NCBI GenBank assembly: GCA_903893745.1
Contig: CAITNF010000013.1
Coordinates: forward strand, 1 to 64,000
Source: an uncultured Actinomycetes bacterium
Lineage (GTDB): Bacteria > Actinomycetota > Acidimicrobiia > Acidimicrobiales > RAAP-2
Length of the DNA stretch: 64,000 nt
Direction of reading: 5' to 3'
Numbering within the stretch: position 1 is the first letter of the stretch; each line of letters starts with the position of its first letter. Below, piece after piece: positions 2,725 through 51,294 of the stretch. The notes beneath the pieces are model-generated. The model was not told the origin of the DNA, did no database searches, and worked only from the letters and a program-made list of their open reading frames with translations. Both the position numbers and the translations under genes were made by a program.

Positions 2725-3606
2725 ATGGCAACAGTCGGATTTATTGGCTTCGGGATTATGGGTGCGCCAATGGCCACCAATCTGGCGAAATCTGGCATCA
2801 ACGTGATTGGATTCAGCCGGACCACTCAGAAAGTCGAGGCGCTGAAATCCCACGGTGTCGTAGTTGCGCAATCTCTGGCTGATCTGGTGCGCGCTTCCGA
2901 TGTTGTCATAACCATGCTGCCCGATTCTCCAGATGTCGAAGCAATGGTGCTGGGCGATGGCGGAGTCTTCGACAATGCTGCCAAGGGCTTACTTTTTATT
3001 GATATGAGCACCATACGACCTGACGTGGCCGAGCGTATCGCTGGGCGTGGAGAGACACTAGGTATTGACTGTCTTGATGCTCCCGTGAGTGGAGGCGAAG
3101 CGGGCGCCATCGAGGGAGTTCTCTCAATCATGGTCGGTGGAACGGCGAGTGCGTTTGAGCGCGGTCGTCCCTTCTTCGAAGCCATGGGGCGCACTATCGT
3201 CCACGTCGGTCCTGCCGGTGCGGGTCAAACCGTCAAGGCAGCCAATCAATTGATCGTTGCCGCAAATATCCAAGGACTGGCCGAGGCCGTAGTCTTCCTC
3301 GAAGCACACGGCGTGGACCTACCCTCAGCAATCGAGGTACTCGGCGGAGGGCTCGCGGGCAGCACCGTGCTCCAACGTAAATCGACGAACATGCTCGATC
3401 GCAGTTTTGCCCCCGGGTTCCGTCTCGATCTCTTTCATAAGGACATGGGAATTATCCAGGCCGCTGCACGCGAAAAAGGTGTCACGACCTTGCTTGGCTC
3501 ACTAGTGGCACAAATTATTGCTTCACTCGTCGCACAAGGGGACGGCGGTTTAGACCACTCCGCGATGATCCGGATTGTTGATCAACTCTCAAAGCGAAGG
3601 GCTTAA
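2725..3606 (+). CDS. garR: 2-hydroxy-3-oxopropionate (tartronate semialdehyde) reductase
   Basis: 293 aa beta-hydroxyacid dehydrogenase. A Rossmann motif (G-F-I-G-F-G-I-M-G) opens the protein. The substrate-binding segment D-A-P-V-S-G-G-E-A-G-A lies near residue 120, and the catalytic lysine is in G-A-G-Q-T-V-K-A-A-N-Q near 170. It reduces tartronate semialdehyde to glycerate with NAD(P)H. The immediate neighbours, hydroxypyruvate isomerase and (convergent) glycerate kinase, favour this role over 3-hydroxyisobutyrate dehydrogenase, which has the same fold. An AGGGAG SD lies about 6 nt before the ATG. The Hyi-like gene starts 5 nt after the stop. Confidence 0.82.
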   Translation: MATVGFIGFGIMGAPMATNLAKSGINVIGFSRTTQKVEALKSHGVVVAQSLADLVRASDVVITMLPDSPDVEAMVLGDGGVFDNAAKGLLFIDMSTIRPDVAERIAGRGETLGIDCLDAPVSGGEAGAIEGVLSIMVGGTASAFERGRPFFEAMGRTIVHVGPAGAGQTVKAANQLIVAANIQGLAEAVVFLEAHGVDLPSAIEVLGGGLAGSTVLQRKSTNMLDRSFAPGFRLDLFHKDMGIIQAAAREKGVTTLLGSLVAQIIASLVAQGDGGLDHSAMIRIVDQLSKRRA

Positions 3607-3611
3607 CTACC

Positions 3612-4418
3612 ATGAACCGAGACCGACTCACTGTTAACTGTTCGATCGTGTTCACCGAACTTGATCTGCTCGATCGTCCCGCCGCAGCGGCGGCGGCCGG
3701 TTTTGATTCAGTTGAGTTTTGGTGGCCCTTTCCCACCGCTAATCCCGACCGCGAACAGGTCGACGCATTCATTAGCGCCCTCGAGGACGCTTCAGTCTCG
3801 CTCACCGGTCTTAACTTCTTTGCGGGCGATATGGCTGCGGGTGAACGAGGAATCCTCTCTTCTCCGGCCCGAGGTGTTGAATTTTCACAGAGTGTCGAGG
3901 TTGCTCGCTACATTGCCGAGCGGACTGGATGTCGTGTATTCAACGCTCTCTACGGAGTTCGCTTACCGGACACGACTCCGACGATTCAAGACAACACCGC
4001 GCTGGAGCGACTCGCCTCATTGGCGTCGTTCACTGACGAAACTCACTCAACCATTGTCCTTGAACCACTAAGCGCAATGGAAACGTATCCGCTAATTACT
4101 GCTCGTGACGCAATGAACGTCATTACAGCACTGAAGGCTTCGGGGGCCACGACGAATGTCACACTCCTCGCCGACTTCTACCATTTGGCCGTTAACGGTG
4201 ATGATGTTTCGGCAGTAATTGCAGAGTTCTCATCGCAGATTGGTCACGTACAGATTGCTGACGCACCGGGAAGAAATGAACCCGGGACCGGCGATTTGCC
4301 ACTGGGTCGATGGCTCAATGAGCTTACGGCAACGAACTACGCCGGGCTCGTTGGTCTCGAGTACAAACCCTCGGCACTTTCCGCCGAGAGCTTTGGATGG
4401 ATTGCAACAACCCTCTAG
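3612..4418 (+). CDS. hyi: Hydroxypyruvate isomerase family (TIM barrel)
   Basis: 268 aa xylose-isomerase-like TIM barrel. The opening V-N-C-S-I-V-F-T-E and the F-D-S-V-E-F-W-W-P-F segment are typical of Hyi. A conserved Glu in V-L-E-P-L, a D-F-Y-H segment and an H-V-Q-I-A-D segment supply the metal/acid-base residues. Hyi interconverts hydroxypyruvate and tartronate semialdehyde. With the reductase 5 nt upstream and the glycerate kinase just downstream on the other strand it forms a glyoxylate/glycerate route to a phosphoglycerate. Glyoxylate carboligase is not in the window. Confidence 0.8.
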   Translation: MNRDRLTVNCSIVFTELDLLDRPAAAAAAGFDSVEFWWPFPTANPDREQVDAFISALEDASVSLTGLNFFAGDMAAGERGILSSPARGVEFSQSVEVARYIAERTGCRVFNALYGVRLPDTTPTIQDNTALERLASLASFTDETHSTIVLEPLSAMETYPLITARDAMNVITALKASGATTNVTLLADFYHLAVNGDDVSAVIAEFSSQIGHVQIADAPGRNEPGTGDLPLGRWLNELTATNYAGLVGLEYKPSALSAESFGWIATTL

Positions 4419-4443: not shown

Positions 4444-5457
4444 TCAGTTCTGCAACGACTCTTTGACCACGACGGCTGCACAATCGAGAACTTGGTTCAG
4501 GGCAATTTCTAGTCCGAAGCGCCTTTCAAGACTCGCAATCGACGAATTGGGGAATCGTCCGCTAAAGATTGCGGCCGCATCGTCGTCGACCGATCCGCAC
4601 ACCACTAAGACTGGTGTTCGACCGGCGGCCAATTGAGCCATTCCGACAGTGACCTTCCCTTCGAGACTGCCCGAATCGAAGCGTCCCTCACCCGTGATAA
4701 CTAGCTGCGCCGATTCAATTCGCTCAGGTAAGCCCACCGCTGAGGACACTGCGTCAAATCCACTCACGAGCGTGGCACCGAGCGAAGCGAGCGCTCCCGC
4801 AATTCCTCCCGCGGCACCGGCCCGCTCCAGTAGTTCAACATCCACTCCTTGCTCATTCAGATAGCGATCTCGAATCGAGCTAAGTCGCTCGTCAATGATT
4901 AATAAATCTTCCGAACGAACTCCTTTTTGTGCGGCGTAGCGTCGAGCACCCGAGAACAATGCATCAATATCGGTGGCGGCAATGACTGGAATTGGTAGCC
5001 CTCCGGCCTCGCGAAGTACTTGGTAACAACCAAGTCCGCCGTCCGATGTTGCCGAACCGCCACACCCCACTACAACCTCACTGGCCCCTAAACGAGCCGC
5101 CGCCAAGATCAGTTCGCCCACACCTCCGCTCTGCGCCGCTAACGCCTGGTGAGGTGCGGGATTCTTAAGAAGTTGTCGCCCAACGGCGTCGGCGACCTCG
5201 ATCACTGCGCGTCGCCCATGCGACGTAGTTACGAAAGTGACGGAAGCTTCGACCCGCTCGCCCAGTGGACCCGCAACATCAACCACTTCAACATCACCAA
5301 CAAATGCATCGCGAAATCCCTCGCCACCGTCGGACATCGGTTGCACATCAGCGGCAAGACCCATGGATTGAACGGCGCTTGCAACCGCTTCGCTCATTTC
5401 ACGAGCGCTCGCGGTGCCGCGAAACTTGTCCATTGCCACGAGCACGTTCGAGTTCAT
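4444..5457 (-). CDS. glxK: Glycerate kinase (GlxK/GarK family)
   Basis: 337 aa. The opening V-L-V-A-M-D-K-F-R-G-T and the M-S-D-G-G-E-G-F segment near residue 42 are hallmarks of the type-I glycerate kinase fold. G-C-G-G-S-A-T-S-D-G-G near 130 and I-T-G-E-G-R-F-D-S-G-S near 260 are the substrate and nucleotide loops. It phosphorylates glycerate with ATP, probably to 2-phosphoglycerate as in this family. It is somewhat shorter than the usual 370-380 aa. It is convergent with hyi (25 nt between the stops) and lies 53 nt downstream of the carboxypeptidase-like gene on the same strand. Confidence 0.88.
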   Translation of the reverse strand: MNSNVLVAMDKFRGTASAREMSEAVASAVQSMGLAADVQPMSDGGEGFRDAFVGDVEVVDVAGPLGERVEASVTFVTTSHGRRAVIEVADAVGRQLLKNPAPHQALAAQSGGVGELILAAARLGASEVVVGCGGSATSDGGLGCYQVLREAGGLPIPVIAATDIDALFSGARRYAAQKGVRSEDLLIIDERLSSIRDRYLNEQGVDVELLERAGAAGGIAGALASLGATLVSGFDAVSSAVGLPERIESAQLVITGEGRFDSGSLEGKVTVGMAQLAAGRTPVLVVCGSVDDDAAAIFSGRFPNSSIASLERRFGLEIALNQVLDCAAVVVKESLQN

Positions 5458-39637: not shown

Positions 39638-40057
39638 GTGAGTTCATTAGGTAAAATCCCCTGGCCGTTACTACGTGAACAGGCCCGTAGCGCTACTAGT
39701 CGATCGTACGCTCCCTATTCGCACGTGACGGTTGGCGCGGCTGGTTACACGAGCAACGGCGAAATCATCACTGGCTCAAATATCGAGAACGCTAGTTACG
39801 GTCTCACCCTGTGTGCCGAATGCTCACTGATAAGTGCCCTCATTGGCCAAGGTGGTGGACGGCTCGTGGCTGTCGCCATCGTGGCGGGTGACGGTGAACC
39901 CATCGCCCCCTGCGGGCGCTGTCGCCAACTGCTCTTCGAACACGGGGGCGCCGAGCTCTTAGTTGACGCCGGAGAAACAGCAGCGCCCCACACCCTTGGA
40001 GCATTACTACCCGAAGCTTTTGGACCGAGTGATCTCGGAGTGCGACGCACGCCATGA
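39638..40057 (+). CDS. cdd: Cytidine deaminase
   Basis: 139 aa, homotetrameric-type size. Zinc and catalytic residues: C-A-E in L-C-A-E-C-S-L-I near 56-60, and P-C-G-R-C-R-Q near 90. N-I-E-N-A-S-Y-G-L-T is the substrate loop. It deaminates cytidine and deoxycytidine to (deoxy)uridine. The GTG start fits a leaderless mRNA. Its stop overlaps the deoA ATG (ATGA). Confidence 0.95.
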   Translation: MSSLGKIPWPLLREQARSATSRSYAPYSHVTVGAAGYTSNGEIITGSNIENASYGLTLCAECSLISALIGQGGGRLVAVAIVAGDGEPIAPCGRCRQLLFEHGGAELLVDAGETAAPHTLGALLPEAFGPSDLGVRRTP

Positions 40058-41331
40058 GTACGTTTTCAGCCGTTGACGTCATCACGACCAAGCGCGACGG
40101 TGGCGTGCTGAGCAACGACGCCATTGGTTGGATGCTCAATAGTTACGTGGCGGGTTTAGTAGCGGACGAGCAAATGTCGTCGCTGCTGATGGCCATCTTC
40201 TTTAACGGTCTCAGTCCCGAGGAACTACGAACGTGGACTGCGTGCATGATCGATTCGGGTGAACGGCTCGATCTTCGAGGACTTTCTCGACCGACCGTGG
40301 ACAAACACTCCACCGGCGGGGTTGGCGACAAAATTTCTCTGATCCTGGCCCCTCTGGTCGCAGCCTGTGGTGCCGCAGTACCGCAACTCTCGGGCCGCGG
40401 TCTCGGGCACACGGGTGGCACGCTCGACAAATTAGAAGCAATTCCCGGCTGGCGAGCAGTACTGACCAACGACGAGATCCGCGACCAGCTCGAAGAGGTC
40501 GGCGTCGTCATCTGTGCCGCCGGGGCCGGACTCGCTCCAGTGGATCGCAAGCTCTACGCGCTGCGCGACGTCACGGCAACCGTTGAATCCATCCCCCTCA
40601 TCTCGTCCTCAATCATGTCCAAGAAGATTGCCGAAGGAACCGGCGCCCTGCTCTTGGACGTGAAGGTCGGGCGTGGGGCGTTCATTAAGGACTACGAACG
40701 GGCCCGCACCCTTGCCGCCACCATGGTCTCGTTGGGCAACGACCACGGTGTGGCGACGGTCGCTCAGCTCACGGCGATGGACGCTCCGCTCGGCCGAGCC
40801 GTTGGCAACGCGCTCGAAGTGACTGAATCGGTTGATGTGTTGCGTGGTGAGGGGCCAGCGGACGTTCGAGAACTCACCCTGGCACTAGCGCGCATCATGG
40901 TGTCGCTTGTGGGTATCGACGTCGATCCCGAAACCAAACTCAACGATGGCTCAGCCTACGAGGTCTACAAACAGATGATCACCGCCCAAGGAGGCGACGC
41001 TGACGCCGAGATGCCGCTGGCGACGCATCGATCAACCGTGGACGCCACCCGTAGTGGCGTCATTCAGTCCATTGACGCTCTCCAGGTTGGTCTGGCCGCG
41101 TGGCGACTCGGCGCCGGTCGGGCCCGAAAGGAAGATCCCGTCAGCGCTGGTGCGGGTGTGCTCTGTTTAGTGCGCCCGGGCGACCAGATTGAAGCCGGCC
41201 AGCCACTATTCGAAATTCACGCCGATGACGTCGAGCACCTGGAGCGGGGCCACCAGAGTCTGAGTGATGCACTAGTAATTGGCGAAGGCGCCGTGACCCC
41301 GACACCACTACTCCTCGATCGAATTCAGTAG
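40054..41331 (+). CDS. deoA: Thymidine phosphorylase (pyrimidine nucleoside phosphorylase)
   Basis: 425 aa. The opening A-V-D-V-I-T-T-K-R-D-G-G, the signature D-K-H-S-T-G-G-V-G-D-K near residue 82 with the phosphate-binding K/S/T, S-G-R-G-L-G-H-T-G-G-T-L-D-K and the C-terminal barrel-sandwich domain are all present. It converts thymidine, deoxyuridine or uridine plus phosphate to the base and (deoxy)ribose 1-phosphate. It is co-translated with cdd through a 4-nt overlap. Confidence 0.95.
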   Translation: MSTFSAVDVITTKRDGGVLSNDAIGWMLNSYVAGLVADEQMSSLLMAIFFNGLSPEELRTWTACMIDSGERLDLRGLSRPTVDKHSTGGVGDKISLILAPLVAACGAAVPQLSGRGLGHTGGTLDKLEAIPGWRAVLTNDEIRDQLEEVGVVICAAGAGLAPVDRKLYALRDVTATVESIPLISSSIMSKKIAEGTGALLLDVKVGRGAFIKDYERARTLAATMVSLGNDHGVATVAQLTAMDAPLGRAVGNALEVTESVDVLRGEGPADVRELTLALARIMVSLVGIDVDPETKLNDGSAYEVYKQMITAQGGDADAEMPLATHRSTVDATRSGVIQSIDALQVGLAAWRLGAGRARKEDPVSAGAGVLCLVRPGDQIEAGQPLFEIHADDVEHLERGHQSLSDALVIGEGAVTPTPLLLDRIQ

Positions 41332-41358: not shown

Positions 41359-42450
41359 ATGGCAACGACGCCCCTGACCCCCGAGCTCATCAAACTCGCT
41401 CCCAAAGTTCTGCTGCACGACCACCTTGATGGTGGCGTCCGGCCCGCGACGGTGCTGGAGCTCGCACGAGAGAGCGGCTACCAGGGACTACCTACTTCTG
41501 ACCTGGACGAACTTGCCACCTGGTTTATCGCCGACGAACCCGGGAGTGACCTTGTGCGCTACCTCGAAGGTTTCGCCCACACCACGGCAGTTATGCAGAC
41601 GCGTGATCAACTCGAACGCGTCGCCAGTGAGTGCGCCCTCGATTTGGCTCGCGACGGGATTGTCTACGCCGAAGTTCGCTTCGCGCCAGAACTTCATCAA
41701 CAGGGTGGACTCACGCTGGACGAAATTGTGTCGTCCGTACTTGACGGCTTCGTTCACGGCACGGACCAAGCCGCCAGCGAGGGACGACACATTGTTGTTC
41801 GTACAATTCTTTCGGCGATGCGCCAAGCGAACATGACGAGCACTATCGCGGCGCTGGCCGTCCAATTTCGTGATCGTGGCGTCTGCGCCTTTGATATCGC
41901 GGGACCGGAAGACGGTTTCCCGCCCACGCAACACTTAGACGCATTCCATCTCGTGCAGCGCGAAAACTTTCATCTCACCGTGCACGCGGGAGAGGCATTC
42001 GGCCTGCCTTCAATTTGGGAGGCAGTGCAATTTTGCAACGCCGAACGTCTCGGTCACGGCGTACGTATCATTGATGACGTGGTGCAACAAGGTGACCACT
42101 ACGAACTCGGACGTCTCGCCCACTACATCCGAGACCGGCGGATTCCCCTGGAAGTCTGTCCCACCTCGAACGTGCACACGGGGGCCGCTCGCTCGATTCA
42201 CGAACACCCGATTGAGTTACTGCGTAAACTTCGCTTCCGCGTAACCGTGAATACCGACAACCGTCTCATGAGCGGCATCACGCTGAGCAGCGAGTTCGCC
42301 GCCTGCGCGGCCGCCTTCAACTGGACACTCGAGGATATGGAGTGGCTGACTCTCAACGCGGCGAAGAGTTCGTTCTACCCCTTTGACCAGCGACTCGCCA
42401 TGATTGACACGGTGATCAAGCCGGGTTACGCCGCTCTGCGGTCTCGCTAA
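41359..42450 (+). CDS. add: Adenosine deaminase
   Basis: 363 aa TIM-barrel metal hydrolase. Zinc ligands: the paired His in L-H-D-H-L-D-G near residue 19, H in T-V-H-A-G-E near 213, and the second Asp in N-T-D-N-R near 295. The catalytic Glu is in the H-A-G-E motif and the His in R-L-G-H-G. It converts adenosine and deoxyadenosine to inosine and deoxyinosine. It ends tail-to-tail with the mutase gene, sharing CTAA. Confidence 0.95.
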   Translation: MATTPLTPELIKLAPKVLLHDHLDGGVRPATVLELARESGYQGLPTSDLDELATWFIADEPGSDLVRYLEGFAHTTAVMQTRDQLERVASECALDLARDGIVYAEVRFAPELHQQGGLTLDEIVSSVLDGFVHGTDQAASEGRHIVVRTILSAMRQANMTSTIAALAVQFRDRGVCAFDIAGPEDGFPPTQHLDAFHLVQRENFHLTVHAGEAFGLPSIWEAVQFCNAERLGHGVRIIDDVVQQGDHYELGRLAHYIRDRRIPLEVCPTSNVHTGAARSIHEHPIELLRKLRFRVTVNTDNRLMSGITLSSEFAACAAAFNWTLEDMEWLTLNAAKSSFYPFDQRLAMIDTVIKPGYAALRSR

Positions 42451-44105
42451 AGCCGCAGTCGACGTTCTAGGTCTTCGGCGATTGCGGTCAGTCGAATATT
42501 TGCGGCGGCGCGCTGCGGCGCCAGCGCCATCTTGTCGTCACGCGGCGGGGTTAGTTCAAGGTACGCCTTCAATTTAGGTTCGGTCCCCGATGGGCGCACT
42601 ACGACCCAGCCAGCGTCACCAAACTGTAGATACACGCCTTCGGTTGGTGGAAGTCCCCGAAAGCCCGTGGCGAGGTCAACGACCATCGTCACATCCTGTC
42701 CACCCAGAGTGGCGGGAGGTTCAACCAAGAGCCGCGCCACCGACGCACTAATGGTGGCCATGGCACTATCGCCCTCGGCACGAATAGCCACTTGGCAACC
42801 AGCGTGAACTCCGTATCGCTTCTCAAGTTCATCGAGCCGATCAAGCAGCGACGCGCCGTATCCGTCAAGTTCCACCGCTAGTCGACAGAGCACCAGAGCT
42901 GCCGACATACCGTCCTTATCGGCCACGAGTGGATCGACCGCGTAACCCAGCGCTTCTTCGTAACCAAAGGCGAGTATTCCTTCTCCAGCCGCTCGACCAA
43001 TCCACTTGAAACCGGTTAACGTTCGGGCGAATCGCATCCAGTGCTTTTCGACCATCTTTTCGAGCATGGTTGACGACACAATGGTGGTAGCCATGACGTT
43101 GCCCGGCGCCCCGGGGTCTTCGAGAATGGCCGACGCAATGAGCCAACCAATCTCGTCGCCCCGCAACACTCGCCACCCTTCGCGCCCCTTGACCGCTACA
43201 CCGAGACGATCGGCATCAGGGTCGTTGGCTACTACCAATGACGAGCCCGTTGCGTTGGCCTCAGCCAGAGCCAAGTCGAGAGCACCGGGCTCTTCGGGAT
43301 TAGGGAAGGCGAGTGTGGAAAAGTCGGCGTCCGGAACGAACTGCGACGCGACTGGATTCACGCCACGGTAGCCCGCCGCCACAAACAGCTCCATCATCGT
43401 GACGCCGCCAACGCCGTGTAGCGGCGTATAGGTAATCGGGAAATCAGTTCCCCCCTTGACGCCAAAGCGACTCGCGAAGTGATCGCGATAGCGCGCCAGT
43501 AGTGACGCAGTTAAGTAGTGATGGAGCGGACTGGTACGTTCGCCCAGGGCGGGCGTGCCCGCCGTGCGGGCGCCGTTCTCAACAGTGGCATCGTCTGGGG
43601 CAATGATCTGTGATCCATCCGCGGCAAAGAGTTTGTATCCGTTGTCACCAGGGGGGTTATGACTCGCCGTGATCATGATGCCGGCCACCGCTCGTAACTC
43701 TTTTACCGCAAACGCCACCAAGGGGGTGGGTAGTGGTCGAGGCATTTCATGTACGACAATGCCCGCACCGAGCAGCACGGCAACCACTTCGTCATTGAAA
43801 GCCTCTGAGCCGTGTCGCGCATCACGTCCGACAACCACGCCCAGCGAGCAGTCCGCACCGCTCTCTTCAAGCCACTGAGCAACGCCCTGAGTGGCCCGTC
43901 GAACCGTGCAGCGATTCATCCCCGCCGGACCAGCCATAACAGGACCACGCAGCCCGGCGGTGCCAAAGGTGAGTGGAGCACTAAATCGGCGTTGAAGTTC
44001 GGCCTCATTACCCTCGTCAAGAAGTTGTTGCAACGTGGCAACGTCGAGCGGATCGGGGTCAGCGGCCAGCCACGCCGCTACCTGTTCTTCAAGCTCGTGG
44101 TTCAC
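42447..44105 (-). CDS. Phosphosugar mutase (PMM/PGM family), candidate phosphopentomutase
   Basis: 552 aa alpha-D-phosphohexomutase fold. The phosphoserine loop is T-A-S-H-N-P near residue 145, the Mg loop D-P-D-A-D-R near 290, the sugar loop G-Y-E-E-A-L-G near 400 and the phosphate loop R-P-S-G-T-E-P-K near 510. The family interconverts sugar 1- and 6-phosphates (or 1- and 5-phosphates). The GTG start overlaps the punA stop (GTGA). In this nucleoside operon without deoB, phosphopentomutase activity is a reasonable inference; mycobacteria pair a similar gene (pmmB) with the nucleoside phosphorylase gene. Glucose or mannose phosphate could also be substrates. Confidence 0.88.
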   Translation of the reverse strand: MNHELEEQVAAWLAADPDPLDVATLQQLLDEGNEAELQRRFSAPLTFGTAGLRGPVMAGPAGMNRCTVRRATQGVAQWLEESGADCSLGVVVGRDARHGSEAFNDEVVAVLLGAGIVVHEMPRPLPTPLVAFAVKELRAVAGIMITASHNPPGDNGYKLFAADGSQIIAPDDATVENGARTAGTPALGERTSPLHHYLTASLLARYRDHFASRFGVKGGTDFPITYTPLHGVGGVTMMELFVAAGYRGVNPVASQFVPDADFSTLAFPNPEEPGALDLALAEANATGSSLVVANDPDADRLGVAVKGREGWRVLRGDEIGWLIASAILEDPGAPGNVMATTIVSSTMLEKMVEKHWMRFARTLTGFKWIGRAAGEGILAFGYEEALGYAVDPLVADKDGMSAALVLCRLAVELDGYGASLLDRLDELEKRYGVHAGCQVAIRAEGDSAMATISASVARLLVEPPATLGGQDVTMVVDLATGFRGLPPTEGVYLQFGDAGWVVVRPSGTEPKLKAYLELTPPRDDKMALAPQRAAANIRLTAIAEDLERRLRL

Positions 44106-44920
44106 AAGATCGGAAGCAGCTGCCGCAACAAAGCCCCTAGTGACGCCGACGCCGCTTGCCCCGCTTCGAGAACTTCGAGATGGTTCAACGGCGTGTCCGC
44201 AACACCAGCAGCGAGATTGGAGACCAGGCTCAGCCCCATAACTTCGGCCCCGAGGTGGCGAGCAGCAATGGCTTCAAGCACCGTCGACATTCCCACCAAC
44301 GTGGCGCCCATAGTGCGGGCCATCGCAATCTCCGCTGGTGTTTCGTAGTGCGGACCGCGAAATCCCGCATAAATTCCTTCACTCAGGCCCGGTACTGCGG
44401 CCAATGCGAGAGCACGAAGGCGCGCACTGTAGAGATCAGTCAGGTCCACGAATCGAGAACCGAACTCTTCCGGTGGTGGAGGTCCCTCCATTGGTGAGGT
44501 CGCCGTGAGGTTCAGATGATCGCGAATGAGCACGACGGTACCGGCGGGCTTGGCGCGATCAATTCCCCCGCAGGCATTTGTCAACACGACACGGCGTGCG
44601 CCGGCCGCGATCACGGTACGAATCGGATGAACCACCTGATCAACCGCGTGCCCCTCGTAAAGATGGACGCGACCGGCGACCAGAGCAACATTGCGGCCCT
44701 CAACGTTCAGCGAAAGAATCTGACCGTGGTGACCAGCCACCGTCGGGGCAAAAAAACCTGGCAGAGACGTGGTGGCGACGTCACTGGTCGGAGCACCGAG
44801 CGCCGTTGCGCCTTCTCGCCAGCCCGATCCCAGCACAATGGCGACGTCGTATGAATCGACACCACTCTTTGATCGCAGCTCATCGGCTGCCTGGCGCGCC
44901 AATTCATAAGGGTTCGTCAT
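44102..44920 (-). CDS. punA: Purine nucleoside phosphorylase
   Basis: 272 aa, trimeric PNP type. V-L-G-S-G-W near residue 32 is the phosphate loop, G-R-V-H-L-Y-E-G-H-A near 80 the ribose/phosphate site, T-N-A-C-G-G-I near 112 and F-R-G-P-H-Y-E-T-P-A-E near 195 the purine site. It cleaves inosine/guanosine and the deoxy forms to the base and (deoxy)ribose 1-phosphate. The ATG at 44920 overlaps the preceding stop by one base (TAATG), with GGTGGG upstream. Confidence 0.95.
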   Translation of the reverse strand: MTNPYELARQAADELRSKSGVDSYDVAIVLGSGWREGATALGAPTSDVATTSLPGFFAPTVAGHHGQILSLNVEGRNVALVAGRVHLYEGHAVDQVVHPIRTVIAAGARRVVLTNACGGIDRAKPAGTVVLIRDHLNLTATSPMEGPPPPEEFGSRFVDLTDLYSARLRALALAAVPGLSEGIYAGFRGPHYETPAEIAMARTMGATLVGMSTVLEAIAARHLGAEVMGLSLVSNLAAGVADTPLNHLEVLEAGQAASASLGALLRQLLPIL

Positions 44921-45771
44921 TACTGTCCCACCGTGTGCCAAACCGTCGACGTCTCGACAAATGCTCGAAGGCGTCGCAGCGACGAGTCGTCGCTTGCTGC
45001 TGGTCGAAGTACCCGCTTGATTGTTGCCGCGCCGGCCACGGCCAGCTCTCCAGCCTGCGCGCCAGCACCTTCGAGATCAAGTCCATCGACGTCCTCGTGC
45101 GTGGCCAATGTCGAGGCGAGTTCACTCGTGATGCCAGTCACGATATTAAAAACACCCCCAGGAAAGTCTGAGGTGGCGGTCATCTCTCCGAGCAAGAGCG
45201 CCGGAGTAGGCCGTCGCTCTGACGCCAGAACCACAACGGAATTACCCACGGTCACCGGTGCCAGCACGGCATCAACAAAACCCTCCAGCGAAGAGTCCTG
45301 GGGGGCGATTACGGCGATGACGCCACTCGGCACCGGCATCGAGAAATTGAAAAATGGACCAGCGACGGGGTTCGCGCCACCAAAGACCTGAGTAATTTTG
45401 TCCGTCCAGCCGGCGTACCAAACAATTCGATCGATTGATCTCGCCACCACTGCTTGAGCTTCTTTCGTCTTGAGACCCTCCGCGACTTGCACGTGTTCGG
45501 TCAGTTCATCGCGGCGTGATTCGGCCATCTCGGCTAATCGATAGATCACTTGGCCACGGTTATACGCAGATGCGGCCCACCACTTAGGCTGTGCAACTCG
45601 AGCGGCGTACACGGCTTCGCGTACATCCTTCTTCGACCCTTGCGCAATATTGGCCCAGTAGGCACCTTTCGCGGTCTTCACTTCGTACGTTCGCCCGGAC
45701 TCTGAGCGAGGGAAGGCGCCATTGATCAAAAGCTTGTAGGTCTTGCGAACTTCCAAACGTTTCTTAGACAT
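44920..45771 (-). CDS. Half-length aldehyde dehydrogenase-like protein without catalytic Cys (ALDH16 C-terminal domain-like)
   Basis: 283 aa from the ATG at 45771, which overlaps the full ALDH gene by 8 nt. It matches the N-terminal oligomerisation and coenzyme-binding half of ALDH: W-Y-A-G-W-T-D-K, P-S-G-V-I-A-V-I-A-P-Q, P-G-G-V-F-N-I-V-T-G. It stops soon after the region that should hold E-L-G-G, so the catalytic domain and Cys are absent. Full ALDH (488 aa) plus this piece (about 771 aa) has the size and domain order of ALDH16, whose C-terminal part is a non-catalytic ALDH-like domain. It is therefore probably a structural partner of the upstream enzyme rather than a pseudogene. Confidence 0.75.
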   Translation of the reverse strand: MSKKRLEVRKTYKLLINGAFPRSESGRTYEVKTAKGAYWANIAQGSKKDVREAVYAARVAQPKWWAASAYNRGQVIYRLAEMAESRRDELTEHVQVAEGLKTKEAQAVVARSIDRIVWYAGWTDKITQVFGGANPVAGPFFNFSMPVPSGVIAVIAPQDSSLEGFVDAVLAPVTVGNSVVVLASERRPTPALLLGEMTATSDFPGGVFNIVTGITSELASTLATHEDVDGLDLEGAGAQAGELAVAGAATIKRVLRPAASDDSSLRRLRAFVETSTVWHTVGQ

Positions 45772-47230
45772 TGAGGTACGCCTCCAATCCGTGACGTCCA
45801 CCTTCGCGACCAAAGCCCGATTCGCGCATGCCGCCAAAAGGACTTGTGGGGTCGAACCGGTTGTAGGTGTTCGCCCACACGACTCCCGCACGGAGTCGCT
45901 CCGCCACCCAGAGCGTTCGACTTCCTTTCTCGCTCCACACGCCACAGGCCAGTCCGTACTTGGTGTTGTTGGCTTTCGCCACCGCCTCTTCGGGGGTTCG
46001 AAACGTCAACATGGACAGCACTGGACCGAAGATCTCTTCACGAGCTATTCGATGTGATTGACTCACGTCAGCAAAAATGGTTGGAGAAAACCAGTAACCA
46101 GTGTCGGGGAGTCGACACGAACTGGTGTAACGAGTCGCTCCTTCCAACTCACCGTACGCAGTGAGTTCGCGAATCTTTTCTAGTTGCGCCGCGGAGTTAA
46201 TGGCGCCCACGTCAGTGTTCTTGTCGAGCGGATCGCCTACGCGGAGTTGGTCGACGCGTCGGACTAATCGACGCAGTACCTCGTCCGCCACGGATTCTTG
46301 GACGAGCAGCCGTGAACCAGCACAACAGACGTGGCCCTGATTAAAGAAGATTCCATCGATAATGCCCTCAACGACTTCGTCAATGGGGGCATCCTCAAAG
46401 ACAATGTTGGCGCCCTTGCCACCAAGTTCTAAGGTCAAGCGCTTATCAGTCGAAGCGAGCCGTTCTTGGATCAGACGACCGACTTCGGTCGAACCAGTAA
46501 AGGCAATCTTGTCGATCCCCGGATGCGCGACGAGTGCCGAACCGGTGGACCCATCGCCGGTCAGAATGTTCACGACCCCCGCGGGTAGTTCGGCCTGTTC
46601 GAGAATCTCCGCCAAAATCAACGCACTCAGTGGTGTTGTTTCGGCCGGTTTCAAGACGCACGTATTACCGGCCGCGAGTGCCGGAGCGAGTTTCCACGCC
46701 GCCATCAAAAGTGGGAAGTTCCAAGGAATGATCTGACCCGCCACACCAATCGGTTGGGGTGACGAACCAAAGCCGGCGTGGTCCAATTTATCGGCCCAAC
46801 CTGCGTAATAGAAGAAGTGGGCAGCCGCAAGGGGTAAGTCAATATCGCGTGACTCTCGTATTGGCTTACCGTTATCGAGTGTTTCGACCACCGCGAGTTC
46901 GCGCGCGCGTTCTTGAATTAGCCGAGCGATGCGAAAAAGGTACTTGCCCCGCTCCGCGCCACTCATCGTGGACCAAACGTTGTCGTACGCCCGGCGGGCA
47001 GCCTTCACGGCGTGGTCTACGTCGCGCACGTCAGCCTGGGCCACCATAGCGAGGGGTAGCCCCGTCGCCGGATTAAGCGTCGCAAACTGCTGATGCTTCG
47101 ACGGATCAGTAAACGCACCGTCAATGAAGAGTCCATAGCTGGGCTGCAACTTGGCCAGTGCCGCTGATTCCGGCGCCGGGTCGTACGCCAATGCCCCTAA
47201 ACGAGAGATCTCCATATTGTTTTCGCTCAC
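45764..47230 (-). CDS. Aldehyde dehydrogenase (NAD-dependent, full length; ALDH16 N-terminal-like)
   Basis: 488 aa. It has P-W-N-F-P at the coenzyme site, F-T-G-S-T-E-V-G, the catalytic Glu in L-E-L-G-G-K and the catalytic Cys in N-Q-G-H-V-C-C-A-G-S-R, then E-E-I-F-G-P-V and S-P-F-G-G-M-R-E-S-G-F-G-R-E-G near the C-terminus. It oxidises an aldehyde to the acid. Just downstream of deoC (GTG one base after its stop, SD GGAG), acetaldehyde from deoxyribose phosphate is the natural candidate. The 3' end overlaps the half-length ALDH gene. Confidence 0.9.
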   Translation of the reverse strand: MSENNMEISRLGALAYDPAPESAALAKLQPSYGLFIDGAFTDPSKHQQFATLNPATGLPLAMVAQADVRDVDHAVKAARRAYDNVWSTMSGAERGKYLFRIARLIQERARELAVVETLDNGKPIRESRDIDLPLAAAHFFYYAGWADKLDHAGFGSSPQPIGVAGQIIPWNFPLLMAAWKLAPALAAGNTCVLKPAETTPLSALILAEILEQAELPAGVVNILTGDGSTGSALVAHPGIDKIAFTGSTEVGRLIQERLASTDKRLTLELGGKGANIVFEDAPIDEVVEGIIDGIFFNQGHVCCAGSRLLVQESVADEVLRRLVRRVDQLRVGDPLDKNTDVGAINSAAQLEKIRELTAYGELEGATRYTSSCRLPDTGYWFSPTIFADVSQSHRIAREEIFGPVLSMLTFRTPEEAVAKANNTKYGLACGVWSEKGSRTLWVAERLRAGVVWANTYNRFDPTSPFGGMRESGFGREGGRHGLEAYLNV

Positions 47231-47231
47231 G

Positions 47232-48224
47232 TCAATCTCCACTAAATTCGTCAGCTCGCACGTACGCACCGCGCTGCTGTTTTAATCGTTGCATCAATAG
47301 GTCATTCAGCAGCGACGAAGCACCAAATCGGAATCGCTGCGGCGTCAACCAGGCTGAACCCACTGTCTCATTGACGAGCACTAGATAGCGAATTGCATCT
47401 TTCGCAGTTCTAATACCACCAGCGACTTTTACACCAATCACTTCACCAGTGGCCTCAGCAAAATCGCGAACCGCTTCGAGCATAATGAGCGCTACTGGCG
47501 TCGTCGCAGCCACCGCGACCTTCCCGGTCGATGTCTTAATAAAATCAGCGCCACCGAGCATCGCGAGCCAACTTGCCCGGCGGACGTTGTCGTAGGTGAC
47601 CAACTCCCCGGTCTCGAGAATGACTTTGAGATGTGCTGAACCACAGGCCGCCTTCACTGCGACGATCTCGTCAAAGACTTGTCCTAAGCGTCCACTCAGA
47701 AACGCCCCCCGATCGATGACCATGTCAATTTCGTCAGCTCCGCTAGCCACTGCTTCTCGAACGTCGAGCAGCTTTACGGCCAGGGATGCGCGGCCTGAAG
47801 GAAAGGCCGTCGCCACCGACGCCACCGCCACCGACGAATCACCCAAGACGGAGCGAGCATGTGCCACCAGGTCCGGGTACACGCACACTGCCGCTACCGC
47901 GGGAACAGAACTATCGAACGGGTCAGGCCGAAGCGCCTTCGTACAGAGCGACCGCACGCGGCCCAGAGTGTCGGCACCTTCCAGCGTCGTCAGATCCACC
48001 ATTGAAATCGCCAAATCAATTGCCTGCATTTTGGACGACTTCTTGATTGATCGAGTAGCAAGTTTCGCGGCCCGCGCTTCCACGCCTACAGCGTCAACAC
48101 CCGAAAGCCGACTGAGGAGTGAACGCAACTCAGTTTCCGACGCAATTTTCGGGAGCACGGCGGCTCCCGCTATTCGCACCGCCCGGTCATTGGCAGTGAC
48201 GAGCCGTAATGGTGCGGTGCTCAC
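47232..48224 (-). CDS. deoC: Deoxyribose-phosphate aldolase
   Basis: 330 aa from the GTG at 48224. The Schiff-base Lys is in A-D-F-I-K-T-S-T-G-K, the second Lys in G-V-K-V-A-G-G-I, and an Asp in E-I-D-M-V-I-D. It is a long form (about 330 aa, against about 250 in E. coli), with an N-terminal extension of roughly 60-70 residues. It splits 2-deoxyribose 5-phosphate to glyceraldehyde 3-phosphate and acetaldehyde. A TAGCGT -10 ends 7 nt before the GTG, so I read it as leaderless. It heads the operon deoC-ALDH-halfALDH-punA-mutase. Confidence 0.9.
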   Translation of the reverse strand: MSTAPLRLVTANDRAVRIAGAAVLPKIASETELRSLLSRLSGVDAVGVEARAAKLATRSIKKSSKMQAIDLAISMVDLTTLEGADTLGRVRSLCTKALRPDPFDSSVPAVAAVCVYPDLVAHARSVLGDSSVAVASVATAFPSGRASLAVKLLDVREAVASGADEIDMVIDRGAFLSGRLGQVFDEIVAVKAACGSAHLKVILETGELVTYDNVRRASWLAMLGGADFIKTSTGKVAVAATTPVALIMLEAVRDFAEATGEVIGVKVAGGIRTAKDAIRYLVLVNETVGSAWLTPQRFRFGASSLLNDLLMQRLKQQRGAYVRADEFSGD

Positions 48225-48231
48225 CCGCCTA

Positions 48232-48237
48232 ACGCTA
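48232..48237 (-). promoter_or_regulatory. -10 element of leaderless deoC promoter
   Basis: TAGCGT on the minus strand, 7 nt before the GTG at 48224. It supports the chosen start over the longer open frame, which runs into rmlC. Confidence 0.5.
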
Positions 48238-48267
48238 CAACGAACCGAGACCGCGCGGTGGCGGTAC

Positions 48268-48834
48268 TTAACGACGAAATACTGGCAGTTCGTTCGCGGC
48301 TCGCCGCGTCGCCAGTGAGGGCGCCGCGCCGTCCTTTTCCGACACAATCGGCGCGCCGTCTACGCCCCACACGACGTTCAGCTCGTCATCAAAGGGGTTG
48401 ATTTCGAGTTCCATGGTGGCGTTGAATGGCGACGACAGTAAGTACGAAAGAACGGCGTGCTCACTCGTGACGCCAAAGCCGTGCGCGACACCTTCTGGCA
48501 ACAGAACCGACAGTCCCTCCTCGGCCGACAGAGGAACGACGACGACGCGACCGTACGAGGGCGAGCCAACTCGGATGTCGACAATCACGTCATTGAGTGT
48601 TCCAGCAACGCAAGTCACTACTTTGGCTTGTCCTTGCGGAGCTATTGAGTAGTGGAGTCCTCGAACCACGTTGCGACGTGACTGCGAAAGGTTAGATTGT
48701 CGGGTCTGAAAACTTACTCCGCCTCGCTCAAGGTCGTCTGCTTTAAACCACTCACGAAAAAACCCGCGATCGTCTTGCCACACGGGCGACTTCAGAATGA
48801 GAAGTCCCTCGATTTCAGACTCGATGAAATCCAC
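48268..48834 (-). CDS. rmlC: dTDP-4-dehydrorhamnose 3,5-epimerase (RmlC-like)
   Basis: 188 aa cupin. The catalytic His is in V-V-R-G-L-H-Y, with the Asp-containing D-V-I-V-D-I-R and V-A-H-G-F further on. R-G-F-F-R-E-W near residue 24 is the substrate arm. It epimerises C3 and C5 of dTDP-4-keto-6-deoxyglucose. I chose the GTG at 48834, which overlaps the rmlB stop by one base (TAGTG). No rmlD is present, so the final sugar could be rhamnose (reductase elsewhere) or another 6-deoxy sugar. Confidence 0.88.
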   Translation of the reverse strand: MDFIESEIEGLLILKSPVWQDDRGFFREWFKADDLERGGVSFQTRQSNLSQSRRNVVRGLHYSIAPQGQAKVVTCVAGTLNDVIVDIRVGSPSYGRVVVVPLSAEEGLSVLLPEGVAHGFGVTSEHAVLSYLLSSPFNATMELEINPFDDELNVVWGVDGAPIVSEKDGAAPSLATRRAANELPVFRR

Positions 48835-49808
48835 TATCCGCGACCTTTCAGCGGACGCCACCAGGACTCATTTTCTTGATACCACTTCACGGTGTTGGCG
48901 AGTCCTTGCTCGAAGTCGACCTGGGGTCTATACCCAAGTTCTTGTTTGATTTTTGACCAGTCAACGGAGTAGCGCCGATCATGCCCGAGCCGATCAGTAA
49001 CAATCTCAATCATCGATTCGTCACTCGTACAAAGCGCCAGAAGCTGACTCGTTAGCTCGCGGTTGGTCAACTCAGTTCCGCCACCAATGTTATAAATCTC
49101 GCCAGCGCGGCCACCCTCCAGCACGGCCAAAATGCCCCGACAGTGATCATCAACGTGCAACCAATCACGTACGTTCATTCCATCACCGTAGAGGGGGACC
49201 TTTAGGCCATCAAAGAGATTGGTAACGAAGAGCGGAATCAACTTCTCGGGAAACTGTCGTGGTCCATAGTTATTGGAACAGCGTGTCACCACGACGTTGA
49301 GTCCGTACGTCCGGTGATACGCCAGAGCGGCCAGATCGGAACCCGCCTTTGACGAAGAGTACGGCGAGTTTGGTTCGAGAATGTGATCTTCGGTCCACGA
49401 TCCCTCTTCAATTGAACCGTAAACCTCGTCGGTCGATACGTGGACAAAACGTTCTATTCCATGCTGGCGTGCACTCTCCAGTAACTGCTGGGTGCCCAGT
49501 ACGTTCGTCTCAAAGAATGCTTTGGCGCCGGTAATAGAGCGATCGACGTGACTCTCCGCTGCGAAATGCACTACCGAGTGCGTGTCGCGAAGTACCTGCT
49601 CGGTGACGGCGGCATCGGTAATCGAACCGTGAATAAATTGCACCCGACTATCGCTCAGCACGTTAACCAAATTTTCAAGGCGACCTGAATACGTCAGCGC
49701 GTCGAGCACCACAATTTCGTCATACCCAAATTGATCTGCCTGCTGGAGGAGCAGCTCAATGAAGCGCGACCCAATGAACCCCGCGGCCCCGGTGATTACT
49801 ACGCGCAT
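48834..49808 (-). CDS. rmlB: dTDP-glucose 4,6-dehydratase
   Basis: 324 aa extended SDR. NAD motif [20 protein letters not shown] near 80, catalytic S/T-D-E in V-S-T-D-E-V-Y, Y-S-S-S-K-A, and [14 protein letters not shown], all characteristic of RmlB. It converts dTDP-glucose to dTDP-4-keto-6-deoxyglucose. A GAGG SD lies 8-9 nt upstream of the ATG. It is divergent from rmlA with 52 nt between the starts. Confidence 0.95.
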
Positions 49809-49848
49809 TGAAGTACCTCGGCCAAAAGAGAAGGGGTTACTGGACTTC

Positions 49849-49854
49849 TATACT
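49849..49854 (+). promoter_or_regulatory. -10 element of leaderless rmlA promoter
   Basis: TATACT, the best -10 match in the window, ends 6 nt before the GTG at 49861. No SD precedes the gene. Confidence 0.6.
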
Positions 49855-49860
49855 AATGGA

Positions 49861-50643
49861 GTGAAGGGAATCATTCTCGCTGGTGGCAGCGGTACGCGTC
49901 TCTACCCCATAACACGGGCAGTCTCGAAACAGTTACTGCCGATTTACGACAAGCCAATGATTCACTATCCCCTCAGTACTTTGATGCTGACTGGCCTGCG
50001 CGAGATTCTTATTATCACCACGCCCCACGATCAAGAAGCATTCCAACGACTTCTCGGCGATGGTTCGCAACTCGGCCTCTCAATCACCTACGTGATTCAA
50101 GATCAGCCCAATGGACTGGCCCAGGCGCTCATCCTCGGGGAGTCATTTCTCGCGGGTGAAAAATGCGCGTTAATTCTTGGCGACAATCTCTTTTATGGGC
50201 CTGGTCTCGGCACTCACCTGCAAAGCCACGTTGACGTGCAGGGCTCGCTGATTTTTGCCTACCAAGTGAGTGATCCGACGGCCTACGGAGTTGTTGAATT
50301 CGATGACACCGGGAAAGTTCTATCCATTGAAGAAAAGCCAGAAACACCCAAAAGCAGCTACGCGGTACCCGGCATCTACTTCTACGATGAAAAAGCATCG
50401 GCGTTAGCCCGCGAACTCACACCCAGCGCGCGGGGGGAACTTGAAATTACTGCGCTCAACAATGCCTACCTCGAGCGCGGTGAGTTGCGCGTTGAAGTGC
50501 TCTCGCGAGCAACAACCTGGCTCGACACTGGCACACACGAGTCGCTCTACGAAGCGGGTGGACTGATTCGCACCCTGCAGCACCGCACCGGACTGCGCAT
50601 TGGCGACGTGGAGCAAATTGCCCGCGACCAAGGCTGGATTTAA
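49861..50643 (+). CDS. rmlA: Glucose-1-phosphate thymidylyltransferase, short form
   Basis: 260 aa. The nucleotide-binding [11 protein letters not shown] and [12 protein letters not shown] are at the N-terminus. D-N-L-F-Y-G near 110, E-E-K-P and [10 protein letters not shown] near 220 are the sugar and metal parts. It makes dTDP-glucose from dTTP and glucose 1-phosphate. It ends right after D-Q-G-W-I and lacks the last 25-35 residues present in typical 290-aa RmlA, a part linked to the allosteric and dimer interface. The start is the GTG just after TATACT; 34 upstream codons in frame overlap rmlB and are not used. Confidence 0.9.
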
Positions 50644-50650
50644 ACGCCTT

Positions 50651-50700
50651 CGAACTCCACACGAGTTCGTCTAGAGTTGGTCGCACCAACGACCAAGGAG
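50651..50700 (+). promoter_or_regulatory. bioY control region: two palindromes around a -10
   Basis: Palindrome 1 is CGAACTC-5 nt-GAGTTCG (50651-50669). TAGAGT (50672-50677) is a candidate -10. Palindrome 2 is TTGGTCG-6 nt-CGACCAA (50677-50696), which abuts the bioY SD. Both stems are perfect over 7 bp. The first could also terminate rmlA. Confidence 0.5.
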
Positions 50701-50706
50701 CCCTTG

Positions 50707-51294
50707 ATGTCAACACTCGCACTTTCCGCCCCACGTCGCGCAACCCTTGCCGACACCCTCTCGCCCACTTTCGCGCTGAACGTGGCTTTGGTAGTCGGTG
50801 CCGCGGCCCTGGTGGGTGTGCTCGCTCAAGTGAGTATTCCTCTCGGCTTTACGCCGGTACCAATAACCGGTCAAACACTTGGCGTGTTACTCGCGGGTGC
50901 GGCCCTTGGATGGCGTCGAGCCAGTCTCTCCATGGCCCTCTACCTCGTCGCCGGTATGGCGGGACTTCCTTGGTACGCCGGTCACTCCAGTGGCATGCCC
51001 GTGACACTTGGTTACATCGTGGGGTTCGTGCTGGCGGGCGCCGTGCTTGGTTCACTGGCCCAGCGTGGAACTGATCGCACCGTTATCCGTGCCGTTCTTA
51101 CGATGATTCTCGGCGAACTAGCGATCTACGTGATTGGCGTGCCGTGGCTCGCACTCTCAATCCACGTGTCGTTGGCCAAGGCAATTTCATTGGGACTCAC
51201 CCCGTTCCTGGCCGGTGACGCCATAAAGGCCGCCATTGCGGGAGTGGCCCTGCCCGCATCGTGGCGACTGGTTGGGCGCCTCACTAACCGTTAA
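50707..51294 (+). CDS. bioY: Biotin transporter S component
   Basis: 195 aa, about six membrane helices. V-P-I-T-G-Q-T-L-G-V-L-L-A-G near residue 55 and the G-M-A-G-L-P-W segment near 85 are typical BioY parts, and the C-terminal helices carry the L-G-L-T-P-F-L-A-G-D-A-I-K motif. It binds biotin as the substrate-specific part of an ECF transporter. No bioM or bioN is adjacent, so it would use a shared energising module or work alone. AAGGAG lies 7 nt before the ATG. Confidence 0.93.
   Translation: MSTLALSAPRRATLADTLSPTFALNVALVVGAAALVGVLAQVSIPLGFTPVPITGQTLGVLLAGAALGWRRASLSMALYLVAGMAGLPWYAGHSSGMPVTLGYIVGFVLAGAVLGSLAQRGTDRTVIRAVLTMILGELAIYVIGVPWLALSIHVSLAKAISLGLTPFLAGDAIKAAIAGVALPASWRLVGRLTNR

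Follow-up and report, generated by a model that had tools for sequence, protein, structure and literature searches.

The window analysed here is a stretch of 64,000 nucleotides (nt) from an uncultured Actinomycetes bacterium (GenBank assembly GCA_903893745.1, contig CAITNF010000013.1, positions 1 to 64,000 of the forward strand; GTDB lineage Bacteria; Actinomycetota; Acidimicrobiia; Acidimicrobiales; RAAP-2), from a genome of 1.66 Mb in 18 contigs that is 96.4 % complete. On its reverse strand, two overlapping genes encode proteins of the aldehyde dehydrogenase (ALDH) type. It is likely that this pair is an ALDH16 held as two genes, the products of which form an obligate hetero-oligomer, with the long protein as the nicotinamide adenine dinucleotide (NAD)-dependent ALDH and the short protein as its non-catalytic partner, oxidizing acetaldehyde derived from DeoC, the deoxyribose-phosphate aldolase encoded directly upstream.

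Identity of the two encoded proteins

The long gene (45764–47230, reverse strand) starts with GTG and encodes 488 aa, corresponding to the N-terminal part of ALDH16. The short gene (44920–45771, reverse strand) starts with ATG and encodes 283 aa, corresponding to the ALDH16 C-terminal domain, and the two share 8 nt (45764–45771). An earlier note, made from the letters of the window, had described a complete 488 aa ALDH with its catalytic Cys and Glu, overlapping by 8 nt a second gene of 283 aa; both descriptions are confirmed. The Pfam Aldedh model is covered from position 3 to 458 of 461 by the long protein and only from 6 to 232 by the short protein, and no NCBIfam model exceeded its cut-off for either protein among the 25 listed (36 and 44 matched).

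When compared by phmmer with all PDB sequences, both proteins have bacterial ALDH16 (6mvr/6mvu) as their best relative, each matching a different part of the chain. The long protein matches chain residues 10–475 with 557.8 bits, the best non-ALDH16 chain scoring 429 bits. The short protein matches residues 501–763, with 132.6 bits for the chain and 100.1 bits for the C-terminal domain, and its best canonical chain is ALDH1A2 at 95.4 bits (94.7 for its single domain). Identity to the C-domain of the Loktanella ALDH16 is 33 % for the short protein of the window, 32 % for a second member of the genus (L031), and 39–42 % for five split short proteins from outside the genus, so that the genus of the window comes out as a divergent member among the split short proteins. 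The AlphaFold2 (AF2) models have a predicted local distance difference test (pLDDT) of 87.7 and a predicted template modelling score (pTM) of 0.87 for the short protein, and 83.7 and 0.85 for the long protein. For both models the first three Foldseek ranks are ALDH16 entries (6mvs, 6mvr, and 6mvu), with identities to bacterial ALDH16 of 53 % for the long part and 31 % for the short part.

A tree was built from 23 N-terminal halves and 23 C-domains (15 split, 8 fused), together with the N-terminal halves of 10 canonical ALDHs. All 23 C-domains, split and fused, form one clade (support 100/100), as do all 23 N-terminal halves (100/99), which sit with the canonical ALDHs and apart from the C-domains. 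The short protein therefore seems not to be a recent copy of its partner. On sequence grounds it is a homologue of the ALDH16 C-terminal domain, more clearly from the tree than from the pairwise score. The proposal of the earlier note that the pair is an ALDH16 in two genes is thereby supported, and its expectation that the short protein would lie closer to the ALDH16 C-terminal domain than to canonical N-terminal halves holds narrowly in bits (100.1 against 94.7) and clearly in the tree.

The long protein is closest to the N-terminal part of known ALDH16 and has the catalytic Cys of the bacterial members, and the short protein provides the second, non-catalytic ALDH-like domain with Rossmann fold and beta-flap. 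Rather than both domains in one polypeptide of about 770–800 aa there are two ORFs (open reading frames), and the pair is therefore classed as a two-gene variant and not as a standard ALDH16. The bacterial ALDH16 of Loktanella sp. was reportedly described by Liu and Tanner in 2019 (J Mol Biol 431:524; PDB 6mvr/6mvs/6mvt/6mvu). Both halves of the pair in the window are homologous to it over nearly the full length, the catalytic Cys is kept, the C-terminal Rossmann domain is likewise non-catalytic, and its near relatives also have deoC upstream. In contrast to the Loktanella protein, there are two polypeptides and no linker, and in some members of the Verrucomicrobiota the genes are even unlinked. 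In its fold and active site the long protein also resembles the canonical ALDH1/2 and betaine ALDH families, which differ in having a longer flap and the C-terminal strand in the same chain, and which are not known to have an obligate partner. Human ALDH16A1 shares the family name and the two-part layout. It is described as being without the catalytic triad in one report (PMC10650815), whereas the long protein of the window retains the catalytic residues.

Complementary losses between the two chains

The long protein carries the equivalents of the active-site Cys, Glu, Asn, and Lys. Residue and flap counts cover loci in which the long protein reaches at least 45 % identity and at least 420 matched residues; repeat fetches (L158–L161 and L189–L208) are set aside. 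In these counts the genome of the window (L001 and L009; its short protein once), G301 (L033 and L077), and one Loktanella genome (L078 and L165) are each represented twice. Equivalents of C302, E268, K192, and E399 are present in the long part of 79/79 split and 108/108 fused forms. At the K192 position of the short part Lys is found in none of 78 split and none of 108 fused forms. Cys at C302 or Glu at E399 is likewise found in 0/78 and 0/108, and Glu at E268 in 2/108 fused forms, counts that run across the missing catalytic domain, where the alignment is mostly gaps.

The model of the short protein (residues 3–283) spans ALDH2 residues 12–497 with only 275 residues aligned, and keeps the strands at 132–135, 140–148, and 151–155 and the final strand at 272–280. 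It looks like an ALDH from which the catalytic domain has been excised and the C-terminal strand kept. The earlier note had taken it for the coenzyme-binding half only, lacking the catalytic Cys. The absence of the catalytic domain stands, but the alignment extends to the C-terminal end of canonical ALDHs. Alignment with ALDH2 ends at residue 488 for the long protein and at 497 for the short protein. The flap of the long part is 14–15 residues in 78/79 split forms and 12 in 108/108 fused forms, compared with 18–23 in canonical ALDHs (n=9), and that of the short part is 25 residues in 79/79 split and 22–23 in 108/108 fused forms. The long chain thus keeps the chemistry, with a shortened oligomerization flap and no final strand, and the short chain is the converse.

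In classic ALDHs the flap and the last strand form the dimer interface. The short protein would supply from another chain the flap and C-terminal strand that are missing in the long protein, and both together would form the assembly that fused ALDH16 builds with one chain. One long and one short protein are predicted to pair like a classic ALDH dimer, and two such pairs would give a 2+2 heterotetramer. Residues 455–476 of the long protein have pLDDT below 50 in its model, and this stretch may need a partner. ALDH16 is described in PMC8160307 as a two-subunit assembly that mimics the classical tetramer and has a non-functional cofactor-binding domain at its C-terminus; transferred to the pair in the window, the short protein would occupy the place of the second subunit of the classic ALDH dimer.

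Instead of being a structural part, the short protein could act as a regulator or stabilizer of the long protein, or as a tether to DeoC for the hand-over of acetaldehyde. Its NAD-contacting Lys is gone while the fold is retained, deoC is the usual neighbour of split and fused forms, and human ALDH16A1 is described in PMC10650815 as working via protein partners, all of which would suit such a role. The parts that form the canonical dimer interface are nevertheless those missing in the long protein and carried by the short one. This favours a structural role, and a regulator or tether is considered unlikely.

Conservation and distribution of split and fused forms

Within the genus, 17 of 19 genomes have the short gene, free of internal stops and cut by contig ends in three (G004, G012, and G018), and 16 of 19 have the long gene. 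The assembly of G018 is 75 % complete; there the contig ends at the short gene, and neither a long gene nor deoC was found. The two genomes without the short gene (G013 and G016, both 1.5 Mb and >95 % complete) lack the long gene and deoC as well. The set that produces and consumes acetaldehyde, deoC and both ALDH16 genes, seems to have been lost jointly in these small genomes.

In a sample of 296 genomes of the phylum, 78 pass a cut-off of 1e-25 for the short gene. Seven of these (G049, G056, G075, G138, G164, G176, and G271) were dropped as canonical-like, having E-values of only 1e-26 to 1e-31, as canonical ALDHs give, leaving 71. The long gene is in 67 (E 1e-170), and at these cut-offs both are in 66, with six mismatches. 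Pieces of the long gene are found in four of the mismatches (G099, G126, G240, and G296). In G164 a contig end truncates the long gene; in G316 (61 % complete) no long gene was found, and 235 nt separate the short gene from the contig end. In all six, the gene concerned is interrupted by a contig end or is no more than about 400 nt away from one.

Comparison of the window with six members of the genus gives ratios of non-synonymous to synonymous substitution (dN/dS) of 0.07–0.11 for the short gene, and of 0.03–0.07 for the long gene in five comparisons, the sixth being saturated; with dS of at least 1.7, near saturation, these values are rough. That the short gene is what remains of a duplicated canonical ALDH, without function and in decay, might be thought from its loss of catalytic and NAD-contacting residues and from its evolving faster than its partner (dN 0.18–0.35 versus 0.11–0.18). 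It is, however, free of internal stops in the 17 genus genomes and carried by 71 in the phylum sample, has low dN/dS in all six comparisons, at dS near saturation, groups in one clade with the fused ALDH16 C-domains, and has the long gene with it in every case that contig ends leave open to judgement. The short gene is not a decaying gene, and decay is a highly improbable explanation of the pair. The findings that the earlier note had named as counting against its reading, a better match of the short gene to a decayed canonical ALDH or a frameshift or absence of it in relatives, are not borne out in most relatives, and the two nearly complete genus genomes without it are also without the long gene and deoC.

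All 64 loci of the same phylum with both parts readable are split, 44/44 and 20/20 in two locus sets. The first set was drawn from 49 loci, of which two are canonical ALDHs (L027 and L028), two are at contig ends (L020 and L024), and one has its long gene outside the flank (L056); it includes the locus of the window, and L033 and L077 are from one genome. The matched parts are separated by –8 to +241 nt, in differing frames. An example from a plasmid collection is Nonomuraea gerenzanensis (Actinomycetota), the best match there to the short protein with 52.5 % identity, in which the order is the same (L243: deoC 1991–2890, ALDH 2906–4312, short protein 4501–5334). The two-gene ALDH16 is common in its phylum and not the oddity of a single organism, and the surprise is moderate.

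In the Pseudomonadota, 27 of 299 genomes are carriers and 27/27 are fused, the count including the genome used as centre (G325). Among the best 80 of 589 confirmed loci in a species-genome collection, 80/80 are fused, mostly from Rhodobacterales by title, a list that leans to fused forms because the query was led by the Loktanella sequence. In the Verrucomicrobiota, the short part is in 30 of 240 genomes (G326, the genome used as centre there, included), of which 4 are fused (G326, G733, G831, and G841) and 26 split, 17 read as loci and 9 judged by coordinates. The long gene without the short is seen in 0/240 (E 1e-150). In G862, G791, and G840 both genes are present though unlinked; at L211, L217, and L223 the short protein is the best ALDH match at the locus and the long gene is elsewhere, so these are not fused. 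This pairing without linkage, together with the disappearance of the whole set from G013 and G016, gives the strongest signs that both proteins work together and with DeoC.

An 8 nt overlap of two frames could also arise from a sequencing error in a single ALDH16 gene, or mark a programmed frameshift that fuses both at translation. Against either stand the split state of all 44 and 20 readable loci, with their varied spacing and frames, the short gene having its own GGAGG and ATG, and the distance between the genes in some Verrucomicrobiota; a broken or frameshifted single gene can hardly be credited.

The earlier note spoke of an ALDH16 cut between its domains, which would mean that a fused gene was split, and this is not established by the trees. 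When the long proteins are compared in a tree over almost their whole length, the split forms (100/99) and the fused forms (100/96) are sister clades with canonical ALDHs outside, and a single event, in either direction, could suffice to separate them. In the careful C-domain tree the fused forms fall beside the verrucomicrobial split ones (95/76), and forcing the split C-domains together costs only 2.2 log units (approximately unbiased test, p-AU 0.43). A quick tree had placed the split short proteins in one clade (support 88); as a claim of polarity this was dropped, because the careful tree disagrees and p-AU is 0.43. Tentatively, and with somewhat less than even expectation, the two-gene form may be the original: an active ALDH and an ancient ALDH relative devoid of the catalytic domain would have formed an obligate hetero-oligomer dedicated to the acetaldehyde branch of deoxyribose catabolism. 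The single-chain ALDH16 would then be a later fusion that made the subunit contact intramolecular.

Among further observations, five verrucomicrobial loci (L139, L147, L151, L224, and L225; Opitutales, Puniceicoccaceae, and others) carry ALDH16 as one gene and group within the proteobacterial clade of fused forms, unlike most carriers of their phylum; transfer is the likely cause. Seven others (L209, L212, L214–L216, L219, and L220) have 564 to 2224 nt between the two ALDH16 genes, room for at least one gene. A record titled Nocardioides marinus DP1N28-1 (L080) has a fused, Rhodobacterales-like ALDH16 with a C-domain 73 % identical to that of Loktanella, and is either a recent transfer, a contamination or a mislabelled record. 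A search of viral contigs gave 10 pattern stretches and no relatives.

deoC, probable pathway and genomic context

Upstream of the long gene, with a gap of 1 nt, is deoC (47232–48347, reverse strand); the ORF is listed from a TTG and the real start is probably further inside it. Counts of deoC were made over the loci with long flanks, apart from those of the genus, phylum-sample, and Pseudomonadota-sample sets, where flanks are too short. In 20/20 actinobacterial loci with enough flank, deoC precedes the pair on the same strand, and it is present in 15/20 verrucomicrobial stretches. In the unlinked verrucomicrobial cases it adjoins the long gene in two of three, with none within 6 kb for G791. 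It is also upstream of the fused gene in 79 of the best 80 of 589 loci, the remaining one being cut by a contig end, and the annotation of Paracoccus ferrooxidans has deoC followed by a single aldehyde dehydrogenase family protein, the fused order. The earlier note had tied the pair to deoxynucleoside catabolism through deoC, and the link stands but is not special to the split form.

DeoC converts 2-deoxyribose-5-phosphate to glyceraldehyde-3-phosphate and acetaldehyde. Acetaldehyde is the most likely substrate: the two-gene ALDH16 would oxidize it to acetate, which could then be activated by acetyl-CoA synthetase, encoded elsewhere in the genome (Acs; 911 bits against a curated cut-off of 725). 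Since DeoC yields two aldehydes, the pair could instead oxidize another, such as glyceraldehyde 3-phosphate, or one derived from a nucleoside. For glyceraldehyde 3-phosphate a central route already exists, whereas acetaldehyde would need a sink, and an acetyl-CoA synthetase above the curated cut-off is present; a different aldehyde is thus judged improbable, though less so than decay or a broken gene.

Several observations weigh against a two-gene ALDH16 acting as one acetaldehyde-oxidizing complex. The pairwise preference of the short protein for ALDH16 is thin, both by domain (100.1 versus 94.7 bits) and by chain (132.6 versus 95.4). When the Foldseek list was looked at again with VIA-align, the short protein gave canonical ALDHs at Z 31.9–33.5 and no ALDH16 among the 50 rows listed, which was not taken as exclusion of ALDH16; for the long protein, the entry 6mvs comes 45th with Z 48.1, the top row having 50.6. 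One split long protein has a flap of 23 residues. The tails after the GREGG motif are 15–64 residues in split long proteins versus 21–41 in canonical ALDHs, and since some are as long as canonical tails, the loss of the strand is argued from sequence and structural alignment and not from length alone. Gaps of 0.5–2.2 kb or unlinked genes in several Verrucomicrobiota show that close coupling of translation does not hold throughout, two genus members (G013 and G016) do without the deoC–long–short set altogether, and acetaldehyde is named as substrate from gene order only. With these points considered, the two-gene ALDH16 is still the likely interpretation. The homology of both halves to ALDH16, the losses that complement each other, the conservation, the joint occurrence, and the order of genes are direct findings, and the physical complex, its stoichiometry, the substrate, and a requirement of the short protein for activity are deduced.

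A natural two-gene form is of real use in asking what the ALDH16 C-domain does: encoded by a gene of its own, the domain can be removed, purified, and restored with no protein having to be cut. With deoC as the usual neighbour of both forms, bacterial ALDH16 gains a probable pathway and a probable substrate open to direct assay, and annotation is sharpened, as such genes are easily labelled merely 'aldehyde dehydrogenase family protein'. No account of a two-gene ALDH16 or of an ALDH16–deoC link was found among the listed titles and abstract openings of the open-access literature, which does not show it to be unpublished. PMC10650815 links human ALDH16A1 to gout and to HPRT1, and it is a loose thought, perhaps a coincidence, to set this beside a bacterial family in nucleoside catabolism.

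Downstream of the short gene on the reverse strand is a purine-nucleoside phosphorylase gene (44102–44920), its ATG at 44920–44918 sharing 1 nt with the stop of the short gene, followed with a 4 nt overlap by a gene for a phosphoglucomutase/phosphomannomutase (PGM/PMM)-family protein (42447–44105), presumed to be a phosphopentomutase. The spacing from deoC through the long and short genes to the phosphorylase and phosphomutase suggests one densely packed nucleoside-catabolism operon. On the opposite strand are genes for a cdd-like protein of the cytidine/deoxycytidylate deaminase family (39638–40057), a deoA-like thymidine/pyrimidine-nucleoside phosphorylase (40054–41331), and an add-like protein of the adenosine deaminase family (41359–42450).

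A Shine–Dalgarno-like GGAGG is 9 nt 5′ of the ATG of the short gene, a pattern that alone is not rare (4 matches in the window against 1.7 expected). Between 42300 and 48500, a scan found 0 promoters against 1.6 expected and 9 terminator-like sites against 6.1 expected, which is uninformative, and an Rfam scan of the whole window gave 0 matches. The nucleoside cluster is adjoined at 48268–51294 by genes for a dTDP-sugar epimerase (48268–48861), a dTDP-sugar dehydratase-like protein (48834–49808), a dTDP-sugar nucleotidyltransferase (49759–50643), and a BioY-family protein (50677–51294).

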